Notes under the pieces: model-generated
The model's input: only the letters and a program-made list of their open reading frames with translations
What the model was told of the DNA's origin: nothing
Database searches by the model: none
In this document: piece by piece, positions 4,445-33,923 of the stretch
Layout: each line of letters starts with the position of its first letter
How positions within the stretch are numbered: position 1 is the first letter of the stretch
Program-made: the position numbers and the translations under genes
DNA from: Oscillospiraceae bacterium
GTDB lineage: Bacteria > Bacillota > Clostridia > Oscillospirales > CAG-272
Assembly (NCBI GenBank): GCA_015063485.1
Contig: SVUA01000017.1
Location: forward strand, 1-33,923
DNA length: 33,923 nucleotides
Direction of reading: 5' to 3'

Positions 4445-4560
4445 TAATTGGCAGCAAGAGGATGTTTGAAAATTTGAAAAGATTATGGAATTATTAATTT
4501 ACTATTGTGGAGACGTGACATTAGCATGCCATCGGCATCTATTAAGGTCAGAACACACAG

Positions 4561-4594
4561 AAAAAAGCACATCTGTTTACAGATGTGCTTTTTT
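4561..4594. terminator. Strong bidirectional terminator after the GH94 gene
   Basis: A perfect inverted repeat of 16 bp: AAAAAAGCACATCTGT (4561-4576), then TT, then its complement (4579-4594), ending in TTTTTT. It works as a terminator in both directions. About 115 bases of unremarkable sequence lie between the GH94 stop and this hairpin, and the hairpin array begins directly after it. Confidence 0.85.
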
Positions 4595-4596
4595 CA

Positions 4597-4766
4597 GTTA
4601 TATTCGCCTACGGCGAGTTCTATTGCTTCGCAGTGATATTCGGCTTACGCCGAGTGATATTCGCTTCGCAAGTTTTGGAGGCGAATATAATATCACTGCG
4701 GAACGAAGTGGAGCAATATCACTTTTGCGAAGCAAAAATATCACGCTGACGAAGTCAGCATATCAC
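4597..4766. repeat. Hairpin array 1 with inverting spacer word GTGATAT / ATATCAC
   Basis: About 170 bases of short hairpins separated by a 7-base word. The left half has GTGATAT (4633-4639, 4654-4660, plus a degenerate copy near 4616). The right half has the complement ATATCAC (4690-4696, 4716-4722, 4738-4744, 4760-4766). Hairpins include CGCCTACGGCG (4605-4615), CGGCTTACGCCG (4641-4652), TTTTGC-GAA-GCAAAA (4723-4737) and GCTGAC-GAA-GTCAGC (4745-4759). The whole is therefore also a large imperfect palindrome. A 94-codon open frame through it is composed only of repeat and is not a gene. It has the same plan as the array at 33396-33560. Confidence 0.8.
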
Positions 4767-4773
4767 TAAACTC

Positions 4774-4802
4774 TTGACAACTTGCAATCTTTATGTTATA
4801 AT
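4774..4802 (+). promoter_or_regulatory. Consensus sigma-A promoter after hairpin array 1
   Basis: TTGACA (4774-4779), 17 bases, TATAAT (4797-4802): a perfect vegetative promoter starting 8 bases past the last array word. A second candidate follows, TTGCAG (4834-4839), 16 bases, TATAAT (4856-4861). Either would transcribe the interrupted small ORF at 4890. Confidence 0.85.
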
Positions 4803-4889
4803 AATCTCAACAAATAATTTTCAAAAACTTTTCTTGCAGTCTCGCTTTCTTTCGGTATAATGTGTTTACCACCCGAAAGGAGAACGAAA

Positions 4890-5081
4890 ATGCCAAATCT
4901 AAAACCATACTATCAAGTAAAGCTAACCCTTCTGCGATGCAAACTGTCTTTTCTCGAACCCCCCAAAAAAACCGAGGACGAGTAATATGCTTATGATATT
5001 ATCCAAAAGGCGTATGAGATCAACGAGAAAAAGATAGAAATGCTTGATTTTGATAATAATAAAAAGCTGTTAGAGGATTAA
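4890..5081 (+). pseudogene. Small ORF interrupted by one in-frame stop
   Basis: ATG 4890 follows AAAGGAG (4877-4883) and two good promoters. The frame reads 31 codons (MPNLKPYYQVKLTLLRCKLS ... TEDE) to TAA 4983-4985, then stays open for another 31 codons (YAYDIIQKAYEINEKK ... KLLED) to TAA 5079-5081. The second half has helical, lysine/glutamate-rich composition but no start near its beginning, so a single nonsense change in a ~63-residue protein is the simplest reading. The alternative is a genuine 31-residue protein followed by chance open frame. No family was recognised. It lies in the AT-rich patch next to hairpin array 1. Confidence 0.5.
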
Positions 5082-31341: not shown

Positions 31342-32034
31342 ATGACATACGTAGTTTCCGATCTTCACGGATCGTTTGGAAAATTCAAAAAGCTTTTAAA
31401 GGAGATAAGATTCACCGACGATGACGTTATGTACGTCCTCGGCGATATCGTGGATTACGGCGAGGAATCCATAGAGCTTCTTTGCGACCTCAGTATGCGC
31501 TTTAACGTCATACCCATCGTCGGCGACCACGATCTTCGCGCGCTCAAACTCCTTACAGAGCTTGATAAAATGCTCAAAAACGGCGCGCCGAGCGATCCTT
31601 CTATTCTTACCGAGATGACGGCTTGGATTCAAGACGGAGGACAGAAAACGATGGAGGGCTTCAAGGCTCTTGATGACGATATGAAGGAAGGCGTTCTCGA
31701 ATATCTCTCCGATATGTCGCTTTACGAGGAGGTCGAGGTAAAGGGCAGAAAGTATCTGCTTTTACACGCGGGAATTGCCGATTTCGACCCCGATACGCCT
31801 CTTGAGGACTACATGCCCGAGGATCTTGTAAGCGAAGCTCTTGACGTGAACAGAGAATATTTTGACGATGTGACGATTATTGCGGGACATATCCCCACCT
31901 ATGAGATAGACGAGGCTGATAAGGGACAGATATATTACGGTGAGGGCAGTATAATAATAGACTGCGGCGCGGCGTTTGACGAGCCGCTTGCCTGCCTGCG
32001 CCTTGAGGACGGCAAGGAGTTTTACATCGCATGA
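31342..32034 (+). CDS. Calcineurin-like (PPP-type) metallophosphatase
   Basis: A 230-residue phosphoesterase; ATG 31342 follows AAAGGAGAAAG (31328-31338). Metal-site motifs run in order: VVSDLHGSFGKF, VLGDIVDYGEES, IVGDHDLRAL, LLLHAGIADFD and IIAGHIPT. Two of them depart from the PPP consensus: GDIVDYG for GDxxDRG (losing the phosphate-binding Arg) and GDHD for GNHD. The metal ligands themselves are retained. Relatives include Ap4A- and protein-serine/threonine-type phosphatases; the substrate here is uncertain. Its stop overlaps the rlmD-type start, so the two are co-translated. Confidence 0.85.
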   Translation: MTYVVSDLHGSFGKFKKLLKEIRFTDDDVMYVLGDIVDYGEESIELLCDLSMRFNVIPIVGDHDLRALKLLTELDKMLKNGAPSDPSILTEMTAWIQDGGQKTMEGFKALDDDMKEGVLEYLSDMSLYEEVEVKGRKYLLLHAGIADFDPDTPLEDYMPEDLVSEALDVNREYFDDVTIIAGHIPTYEIDEADKGQIYYGEGSIIIDCGAAFDEPLACLRLEDGKEFYIA

Positions 32035-33389
32035 AAAAGGACGACCGTATCGTCCTTGAGATAGGCGACATAAACAACTTGGGTTGCGGTGTCGGACGTG
32101 CCGAGGACGGAAGAGTAGTCTTTGTTAAGGGAGCGGTCACGGGTGACACGATAGAAGCAAAGATCATAAAAGTCAATAAAAGCTTTGCGGTAGCGCGAAT
32201 GGAGAAGTTGATAACGGCTTCTCCATGTCGTGTTGAAAGGGATAGCTGCACAGCTCCCCTCTCATGCGGTGGCTGTGTTTACAGACATATAAAATACGAG
32301 CATGAGCTTGAGATAAAGCGGGGCTATGTTAAAAACGCTTTTGTTAAAGTGGGACTTGCCGACGTGAACGTCTTGCCCGTTATGAATACGGGCAAAATTA
32401 CGGGATACCGCAATAAAGGTCAGTTTCCGCTGACGACGGTAAAGGGCAGAGTGACCGCGGGCTTTTACGCTTCAAAGTCGCATAATATCGTTCCGTCCGA
32501 TGAATGCGCTATCCAAGACCCCGCATTTGCCAAGGTAGTGGCAGAGGTCTGCCGTTTTGCGACGGAAAGGGGAATATCGACCTATAACGAGGAGACTGGC
32601 AAGGGAATCTTGCGCCACGTGTATCTTCGTATTGCGCAAAAGACAGGCGAAATTATGCTCTGTATCGTTATAAATTCGGATAATTTACCGCACGCGGACG
32701 AGCTTTGCCAAAGAATAAGAGAGATTTTTCCGCTCGTTAGCGGCATACTCCTGAACGTAAATAAGAAAAATACAAATGTTGTTCTTGGGGATAGATTTAT
32801 AACCCTGTGGGGAAATGATTACATAGAGGACGAGCTTTGCGGTCTGCGTTTCAGAATAAGTCCGCAGTCCTTTTATCAGGTGAATCGTGACGGCGCGGAG
32901 ATGCTTTATACCGAGGCGGCAAAGAAAGCCGAGCTTCGCGGCAATGAAGTCTTGATGGACCTTTATTGCGGAACGGGAACGATAGGGCTTTCGATGGCAA
33001 AAAATACAAAAAAGCTTGTTGGAATAGAGATAGTCGAGTCGGCGGTCGAGTGCGCAAAGGAGAATGCCGAGCGAAACGGTGTGCAGAACGCCGAGTTTTA
33101 CTGTGCCGACGCGTCGGACAGAGAAACTATCCTCAAATGTGCGGGCGGAGTGCGTCCCGACGTAGTTGTCATCGACCCGCCGAGAAAGGGAACGACAAGG
33201 GAGCTTGTCGAGTGCCTTGCATCGCTCCAAGTGCCGAGAGTGGTCTACGTTTCGTGCGACCCCGATACGCTCGCCCGCGACTGTGTGTGGTTTAAAGAAA
33301 TGGGTTATGAAATAGGCGAAGTTCAACCCGTTGATATGTTTGCGAGAACAGGGCACGTTGAAACTATTGTTTGTCTTCGCAAACAATAG
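32031..33389 (+). CDS. rlmD: 23S rRNA (uracil-5-)-methyltransferase RlmD/TrmA family
   Basis: A 452-residue enzyme that makes 5-methyluridine in 23S rRNA. ATG 32031 overlaps the previous stop (ATGA). Residues ~1-60 form the TRAM domain (VLEIGDINNLGCGVGRAEDG). CRVERDSC ... LSCGGCVYRH gives the Fe-S-type cysteines. The SAM fold has MDLYCGTGTIGLSMA, VGIEIVESAVECAKEN and VVIDPPRKGT; VVYVSCDPDTLARD carries the catalytic Cys. In Bacillota such proteins (RlmCD type) may modify two sites. The C-terminus ETIVCLRKQ is unusual after the conserved GHVET, and its codons form one arm of a perfect hairpin that opens the adjoining array. Confidence 0.9.
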   Translation: MKKDDRIVLEIGDINNLGCGVGRAEDGRVVFVKGAVTGDTIEAKIIKVNKSFAVARMEKLITASPCRVERDSCTAPLSCGGCVYRHIKYEHELEIKRGYVKNAFVKVGLADVNVLPVMNTGKITGYRNKGQFPLTTVKGRVTAGFYASKSHNIVPSDECAIQDPAFAKVVAEVCRFATERGISTYNEETGKGILRHVYLRIAQKTGEIMLCIVINSDNLPHADELCQRIREIFPLVSGILLNVNKKNTNVVLGDRFITLWGNDYIEDELCGLRFRISPQSFYQVNRDGAEMLYTEAAKKAELRGNEVLMDLYCGTGTIGLSMAKNTKKLVGIEIVESAVECAKENAERNGVQNAEFYCADASDRETILKCAGGVRPDVVVIDPPRKGTTRELVECLASLQVPRVVYVSCDPDTLARDCVWFKEMGYEIGEVQPVDMFARTGHVETIVCLRKQ

Positions 33390-33395
33390 TTTCAA
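33358..33395 (+). repeat. Perfect 16-bp palindrome spanning the rlmD stop codon
   Basis: TTGAAACTATTGTTTG (33358-33373) pairs exactly with CAAACAATAGTTTCAA (33380-33395); loop TCTTCG. The rlmD stop (33387-33389) lies inside the right arm. There is no T run, so it is not a standard terminator; it appears to be the first hairpin of array 2. Confidence 0.85.
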
Positions 33396-33560
33396 CAATG
33401 AATTGCAACCTTGCGGTTGCGTGAATTGAGTACAAGTGCTCATGAATTGCCTACGGCATGAATTGCGCTGCGGCGCATTGGGGTTGCAATTCAATTCATG
33501 GAGCGTAGCGAGAAATCATGAAGCAGTAGGCTTCAATTCATGACACAAAGTGTCAAATCA
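33396..33560. repeat. Hairpin array 2 with inverting spacer word TGAATTG / CAATTCA
   Basis: Short hairpins separated by a 7-base word. Left half: TGAATTG at 33399-33405, 33422-33428, 33443-33449 and 33459-33465. Right half: CAATTCA at 33487-33493, 33492-33498 and 33534-33540. Hairpins include GCAACC-TTGC-GGTTGC (33405-33420), GCC-TAC-GGC (33449-33457), GCGC-TGCG-GCGC (33465-33476), GAAGC-AGTAG-GCTTC (33520-33534) and TGACAC-AAA-GTGTCA (33541-33555). The plan is the same as array 1 but the spacer word differs. It ends 20 bases before the four-helix-bundle start codon. Confidence 0.8.
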
Positions 33561-33580
33561 TTCAAAAACGAGGATTTACG

Positions 33581-33923
33581 ATGAAAGAAAACTTTTTAGT
33601 TGATTTATCAAAGCAATTCGCTGTGGATATCGTCAATCTTTGCACCAATATCAAAGAAAACCGCAAAAGCAATGTTTTGCTAAACCAAATATTACGAAGT
33701 GGCACAAGTATTGGCGCAAATATTCACGAAGCCAACTACGCTGCAAGTAAGGCGGATTTTATAAACAAATTCCAAATAGCATTGAAAGAATGCTATGAAA
33801 CAGACTATTGGCTCGGTCTGTTCAAAGATACGCACATGATAACCGAGGAAGAATATAAGGATATGTTCGCAAAATGCAGTAAGATACGCAAACTGCTCAT
33901 CGCTTCCATCACCACCGCAAAGG
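33581..33923 (+). CDS. Four-helix-bundle protein, S23/23S-rRNA-IVS type (partial)
   Basis: ATG 33581 lies 8 bases after GAGG (33570-33573); the frame is open to the window edge (114 codons, close to the usual ~120). The family hallmark is obvious: LLNQILRSGTSIGANIHEAN followed by ASKADFINKFQIALKE and ETDYWLGLF, then a fourth helix FAKCSKIRKLLIASITTAK. Members are encoded within 23S rRNA intervening sequences of some bacteria, as free-standing genes, and as relatives of the Avd accessory protein of diversity-generating retroelements; they form basic pentamers that may bind nucleic acid. No reverse transcriptase gene is visible here. A/T-rich codons contrast with rlmD. It directly follows hairpin array 2. 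Confidence 0.9.
   Translation, partial: MKENFLVDLSKQFAVDIVNLCTNIKENRKSNVLLNQILRSGTSIGANIHEANYAASKADFINKFQIALKECYETDYWLGLFKDTHMITEEEYKDMFAKCSKIRKLLIASITTAK

Follow-up and report, generated by a model that had tools for sequence, protein, structure and literature searches.

Structure of the locus

The window, by which we mean the whole stretch of 33,923 nucleotides that was analysed and that makes up one entire contig, ends with the rlmD gene, a folded array of repeats and a second gene that runs off the contig. The features of this region are as follows:

32031..33389, plus strand: rlmD (rumA), 23S rRNA methyltransferase gene (TIGR00479, 396 bits); its 3' end is the target
33357..33396: junction hairpin, 17/17 pairs; the left arm is rlmD coding sequence, the right arm is its complement and is missing at empty sites
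33399..33477: left half of the array, TGAATTG starting at 33399, 33422, 33443 and 33459, with hairpins between
33482..33493: segment complementary to 33399-33410, 12/12 pairs
33487..33561: right half of the array, CAATTCA starting at 33487, 33492 and 33534, variant AAATCAT at 33513 and 33555, with hairpins between
33581..33922, plus strand: S23 / 23S_rRNA_IVP four-helix-bundle gene, truncated where the contig ends (PF05635, TIGR02436, solved relative 2rld)

The rlmD gene ends at 33389, within the right arm of the first hairpin. Through 33357-33566 this junction hairpin is followed by the left half and then the right half of a head-to-head array, and the S23 gene comes after them. The initial annotation had described a palindromic array whose separating word is inverted at the mid-point, and this is what is found, with TGAATTG in the left half and its complement (or the variant) in the right half. 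It had also counted about ten short hairpins; hairpins there are, the number being seven or so. Those of at least 4 bp lie at 33357-33396 (17 bp, perfect), 33405-33420, 33448-33458, 33464-33477, 33519-33535 and 33541-33555, and an additional one with a G.T pair is seen by eye at 33428-33441. Folding is both local and long-range, as had been proposed, since the first word and the arm of the first hairpin after it (33399-33410) pair with the start of the right half in the stem of 12 listed above.

As DNA, the region 33357-33566 folds with a z of -7.0 on the plus strand and -7.9 on the minus strand, and none of 200 shuffles is as good on either strand. The RNA fold of 33340-33600 has a z of -6.0, again with 0/200 shuffles as good. 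The folding shuffles, together with the background tiles given below, rule out chance or low complexity as the origin of the array.

The gene behind the array starts at 33581, 19 nt past the last separator, in agreement with the earlier observation of about twenty bases. Its assignment to the intervening-sequence (IVS) protein family holds, with matches to PF05635 at 94 bits (cut-off 33.8) and to TIGR02436 at 104.6 bits (cut-off 24). The frame is open to 33923 with no stop, and the gene is therefore partial, the window being the whole contig. The solved relative is reported to be a ring of five. The S23 gene has no PADLOC match and no match to a known defence or phage family, and its nearest named loci are from Oscillospiraceae and other Clostridia metagenome-assembled genomes (MAGs), many of them from the ruminant gut.

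Association of the array with S23 genes in related genomes

We consider the S23 genes of 30 genomes of the genus (23 with PF05635) and 196 genomes of the family (120 with PF05635), which contain, among the matches listed, 127 distinct S23 regions, 114 of them with at least 400 nt of upstream sequence. The strict detector asks for an exact seven-letter word with at least two forward copies followed by at least two complementary copies, six in total. Among the matches listed, 51 of the 114 S23 genes have such an array upstream and 0 of 104 have one downstream, whereas background tiles from these loci contain one in 4 of 871 cases (Fisher p 2.7e-48). This gene set, to which 60 separately retrieved regions contribute, leans to high-scoring matches, and some of its entries are incomplete or occur more than once (L153 three times, L108 twice). 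Of 80 named loci retrieved, 72 have enough upstream sequence, and strict arrays are found upstream in 45/72, downstream in 0/66 and in 4/1223 tiles, with 32 of the 72 sharing S23 DNA with the first set. The co-occurrence is thus far above chance in both sets, and the suggestion of the initial annotation that array and four-helix-bundle gene form a unit is borne out.

The remaining 63 of the 114 S23 genes, among the matches listed, have no strict array and belong mostly to lower-scoring branches. A softer detector that allows one mismatch was rejected as too loose at six words (upstream 103/114, background 216/400); at eight words it finds arrays upstream of 77/114, downstream of 13/101, in 22/400 background tiles and in 2/114 shuffled sequences.

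The array words differ between loci (TGAATTG, GTGAAGT, AATGATG, GTGATAT, GTGAAAT, GCTAAAT and others) and track the S23 tree. For 50 of the 51 arrays, L157 being left out as a plain seven-base tandem, the word requires 15 changes on the tree with a minimum of 12, against a mean of 36.5 after shuffling and with 0/200 shuffles as low, on a quick tree with strong support on 9 of 47 inner branches. As judged from this tree, the comparison shows array and S23 gene descending together, an agreement that is also expected from plain linkage.

Insertion sites at rlmD and behind tRNA genes

The initial annotation described the array as joined to the 3' end of rlmD. In the window this is so, through the 17-bp hairpin; as a rule it does not hold, and the unit is not tied to rlmD. 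Of all 51 strict arrays, 31 are preceded by a same-strand tRNA gene whose end is at most 130 nt away, 9 lie at rlmD and 11 occupy other places. For 46/51 arrays, against 17/434 control tiles, the 95 nt ahead of the first word contain a stem of 10 pairs or more, with one mismatch tolerated, and by eye these stems are terminator-type hairpins or the rlmD junction.

Thirty-six distinct rlmD 3' ends were compared: 18 have a strict array, 7 have an array or a remnant by eye and 11 are empty, with at most 10/17 matches in the complementary arm. The array as a conserved rlmD terminator, the alternative raised at the outset, is ruled out by these 11 of 36 ends without array or complementary arm, and 31 of the 51 arrays are at tRNA genes. 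Full 17/17 complementarity of the arms is seen at seven rlmD ends with five different left-arm sequences. At the 19 ends where the word directly follows the arm, the right arm fits its own left arm with a mean of 13.2/17 and swapped arms with 10.4, in an ungapped comparison where one-base shifts count against the fit. At L167, the right arm of the window stands beside a left arm that it does not fit.

The rlmD ends of L163 (G018), L172 (G002) and L174 (G023) carry array remnants made of the right arm, the first word and a few bases more; these might be scars left by excision, or the result of deletions. In six genomes of the genus (G001, G002, G017, G022, G027, G029), the 2.6 kb that follow rlmD contain additional copies of its 3' end, and some genomes have further copies on other contigs; a reversed control pattern gave none. 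Downstream of rlmD in L175, L176 and L178 there are small co-oriented genes with rlmD 3'-end copies between them, array-less sites included, and this region may be a wider cassette hot spot.

Behind tRNA-Tyr, 26 loci of the genus include 8 strict arrays of four word families, 3 arrays and 5 partial or truncated ones by eye, 7 loci with none and 3 that are unjudgeable. Sequence comparison shows the units in sites that are used repeatedly, behind tRNA terminators and at the rlmD 3' end, and that related genomes leave empty or occupy with arrays of other families. Direct copies of the target flank at the distal side (at least 26/30 letters) are found for 10/51 arrays; as the upstream control gives 5/51, they are no pillar of the case, and distal direct repeats of the target are weakly supported as a general rule.

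Loop types and the Gut-1 RNA

A hairpin of at least 4 bp is formed in 138 of 206 array units, against 179 of 2060 shuffled spacers. When the units are read word first, 79 of the 138 loops are of the type C(T..C)G and 1 is C(G..A)G; the named loci that share no S23 DNA with the first set give 37 of 58 loops against 2. The complementary strand therefore has C(GNA)G and C(GNNA)G loops, which are unusually stable DNA mini-hairpin types. Among the four-base loops UUCG is absent, and they are not restricted to GNRA. Both halves have the same polarity toward their own word, so one half is presented per strand. These loop types favour a folded DNA over a folded RNA.

The loop types bear on the possibility that the array acts on S23 expression as a regulatory region, in the form of RNA or of DNA (by self-repression or attenuation, for example), with mobility coming from another source. 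The TGAATTG-type array ends about 20 nt before the S23 start codon and its RNA folds strongly (z -6.0), which would fit such a region. In many tRNA-type units, however, a promoter-like sequence is seen by eye between array and S23 gene, and the array would therefore be outside the transcript; arrays also exist without S23, and the loops fit DNA better than RNA. We regard a control region as improbable.

The only Rfam match in the window is to the Gut-1 RNA (RF01706), at 4595-4665, with 54 bits against a gathering score of 50. It overlaps a second array, described below; the array at 33357-33566 has no Gut-1 match at the gathering score. Gut-1 matches S23-linked arrays on opposite strands, in some cases below the gathering score, and in the L030 array it is above it on both strands (G015:C6, 1715-1786 plus with 69 bits and 1805-1895 minus with 57.6 bits). 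Matches occur in 27 of 30 genomes of the genus, 18 of them over the cut-off, and one weak match occurs in 14 control genomes. Genomes with S23 have a mean of 6.7 Gut-1 matches (n=23) and those without have 1.9 (n=7; p 0.004), many of the genomes being incomplete. Arrays are present too in genomes without a detected S23 gene, most genus members being incomplete MAGs. In a 2010 paper, Gut-1 is listed as a noncoding RNA from human gut samples only (PMC2864571). With matches on both strands of the same arrays, the Gut-1 'RNA' can be re-read as probably one half of a two-sided DNA element.

Transfer, dispersal and a second unit in the window

The S23 gene of the window and that of locus L091 are 96.7% identical in DNA and 99.1% in protein, with 8% of the shared-residue codons changed, while the adjoining RlmD proteins are 66.7% identical. 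By segment, the DNA identity is 70% in rlmD, 67% in the array and 96% in S23; within the array the hairpin stems diverge strongly and the words are kept. In L076 and L160, the left array half is nearly letter-identical by eye and the rlmD ends are 62% identical. These identities show that the S23 gene and parts of the array have crossed between species at the rlmD site. Occupied sites, empty sites and transfer between species are what marks a mobile element, and all are found here. Of the earlier suggestion of an "RNA-protein or mobile unit", the mobile part stands with the transfer and the empty sites, and the RNA-protein part gives way to the folded DNA that the loops favour.

Seven further places in the genome of the window match the array; no S23 gene is detected on their contigs, and contig ends interrupt three of the seven. 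Aligned over about 230-250 nt, two of these copies show 96% and 86% identity to a third. The copies L002-L004 in this genome have common sharp outer ends and imperfect terminal inverted repeats, and with such shared ends the array therefore also moves as an element of the MITE type. At least two strict arrays are present in 18 of 191 oriented loci, and in several loci the alignments have a second hairpin and array past the cargo gene.

The second unit of the window contains:

4560..4595: terminator-like hairpin before the array, 16 bp
4604..4766: GTGATAT / ATATCAC array, overlapping the Gut-1 match
4767..5047, plus strand: promoter, post-S23 sequence and cargo frame without S23 (comparison with L056, L018 and L120)

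Here an S23-type promoter (4767-4803) is followed from about 4809 by the sequence that is found after S23 in the three compared loci, and then by a short cargo frame that begins at 4890 and is interrupted by a stop. An S23 gene is not detectable in 4560-5047, and the comparison makes this look like a unit that lost it.

With dispersed arrays at hand, one may ask whether the arrays are simply palindromic elements in their own right, of the MITE or BIME kind, which settle at terminators, with S23 sharing the same safe sites and the link being one of neighbourhood. The S23-less copies in the genome of the window, cut contigs included, would fit, as would the S23 gene being within the examined flanks of only 3/30 Gut-1 loci of the genus. 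Against this stand the strong one-sided linkage, seen upstream and never downstream among the matches listed, the word that tracks the S23 tree, and the array-only unit at 4560-5047, which resembles one that lost its S23. We consider independent elements unlikely.

Apparent cargo genes

Of 64 next genes assessed behind array-bearing S23 genes, 54 point in the direction of S23 and 10 in the opposite one (a raw count; 29 more cases have no callable S23 frame and 3 ended). The 54 co-oriented next genes have a median length of 160.5 aa and a median gap of 60 nt, and those at a distance of at most 400 nt encode, in the relatives, 53 proteins that fall into 49 clusters. Judged by eye, these comprise lipoproteins and membrane proteins besides proteins that resemble acetyltransferases, glyoxalases, phosphatases and flavodoxins. 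The unit appears to carry cargo genes; in the window, the cargo would lie past the end of the contig.

Seven-base repeats around S23 genes in other phyla

Beyond the Clostridia arrays, 19 of 26 records of plasmid S23 genes were examined (Cyanobacteria, Chloroflexota, Bacteroidota, Spirochaetota, Monoglobus). Upstream of S23, 14/19 have a best tandem period (z at least 4) of 7 or 14, and downstream 15/19 do; the best period is never another one. Among background tiles, 7/241 have period 7 or 14 and 8/241 have other periods. The repeats on the two sides of the gene are reverse complements of each other, and an exact inverted match of at least 12 nt is present in 13/19, against 10/342 crossed pairs and 1/126 control windows. 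Direct matches of at least 12 nt occur in 6/19. The clostridial S23 genes without a strict array (n=63) have an upstream period with z at least 6 in 10 cases, all of them 7 or 14, and an inverted match of at least 12 nt in 9/59. Tandem seven-base repeats before S23 are also described for the Coxiella intervening sequence (PMC4990558). We infer that the seven-base word may be the common partner of the S23 family, with the clostridial hairpin array as a derived form.

Some plasmid S23 genes lie between cas2 and cas1, csx2 and cas1, or hsdS and hsdR (L331, L339, L342, L348). Such a position between CRISPR or restriction genes would agree with S23 forming, with a structured partner of RNA or DNA, a pair for toxin-antitoxin function or defence, and a repeat array before a small gene is reminiscent of type III toxin-antitoxin systems. 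Yet the S23 gene has no PADLOC match, and the head-to-head symmetry and the dispersed array-only copies do not suit an RNA antitoxin, which leaves a pair of this kind very unlikely.

Proposed model and its meaning

Combining the above, we think it quite probable that the region 33357-33923 belongs to a small mobile gene cassette and forms its front end, the cassette consisting of a target hairpin, a head-to-head array of words and hairpins, an S23 gene and a variable small cargo gene. In this cassette, the S23 protein would bind the word beside a DNA mini-hairpin once the array is extruded or single-stranded, and would direct the unit to a DNA hairpin located where a host gene ends. The unit would then insert at the host hairpin, making or keeping the hairpin junction, and the strands would possibly be joined by a host recombinase. 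S23 binding, excision and the joining enzyme are parts of the model that we infer.

An integron integrase, an HUH transposase and a reverse transcriptase were each rejected as the driver, none being over the cut-off in the genome of the window (87% complete). The integron integrase IntI (TIGR02249) is over the cut-off in 0/30 genomes of the genus, and weaker tyrosine recombinase matches are present in 30/30. A Y1 HUH transposase is over the cut-off in 10/30 and reverse transcriptase (PF00078) is present in 7/30; neither is found in the genome of the window, at its 87% completeness. No published account of a unit of array and S23 gene was found in the open-licence literature, as judged from titles and the beginnings of abstracts.

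Such a cassette would let genes be exchanged by a path other than integrons and known transposons, varied small accessory genes appear to move among gut Clostridia in this way, and a published orphan RNA motif would be re-read as half of a DNA element. The function of the S23 four-helix-bundle proteins and the role of rRNA intervening sequences are given as open questions in PMC4990558. The pairing of array and S23 offers a first handle on the function of this family: with a consistent DNA partner, either seven-base repeats inverted around the gene or a hairpin array, the function becomes a question for a binding assay. A wider reading, speculative and to our mind doubtful, is that S23 proteins throughout bacteria have seven-base arrays as partners and read their word, which changes from one element to another, that in Clostridia they run a hairpin-finding, gene-carrying cassette system without known recombinases, and that rRNA intervening sequences and the Gut-1 'RNA' are pieces of the same system.

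Comparison with known systems

The nearest likeness is to the 23S rRNA intervening sequences, for example that of Coxiella, which combine a PF05635 protein with an insert that has inverted repeats; the one of Coxiella also has seven-base tandem repeats before S23 (PMC4990558). The unit of the window differs in lying outside rRNA, behind rlmD (in relatives behind rlmD or tRNA genes), and in its hairpin array and cargo genes. The S23 gene is conserved here, whereas the Coxiella frame is reported to be decaying (PMC4990558). As for a stem that closes around S23, as in an intervening sequence, both array halves of the window lie upstream of S23 and the contig ends inside the gene.

PF05635 proteins also resemble Avd of the diversity-generating retroelements, according to PMC10053308; here, however, there is no reverse transcriptase match in the genome of the window or in 23/30 genomes of the genus. 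The Gut-1 RNA (RF01706) matches halves of the arrays on opposite strands; it was published as a noncoding RNA (PMC2864571), whereas here it is half of a two-sided element.

Two mobile systems resemble the unit in their architecture. REP/BIME elements with RAYT likewise have inverted hairpin pairs beside a short conserved word and are dispersed in the genome, but the array words vary here, and the Y1 transposase is absent from the genome of the window and over the cut-off in 10/30 of the genus. Integron cassettes share the varied small promoter-near cargo (49 clusters for 53 proteins), the tandem units at fixed sites and a hairpin at the joining site. As regards a counterpart of the attC site that ends each cassette, distal copies of the target flank are seen for 10/51 arrays and 5/51 in the upstream control. 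They differ in their integrase, which is over the cut-off in 0/30 genomes of the genus, and in that each unit described here has its own S23 gene and its own multi-hairpin array.
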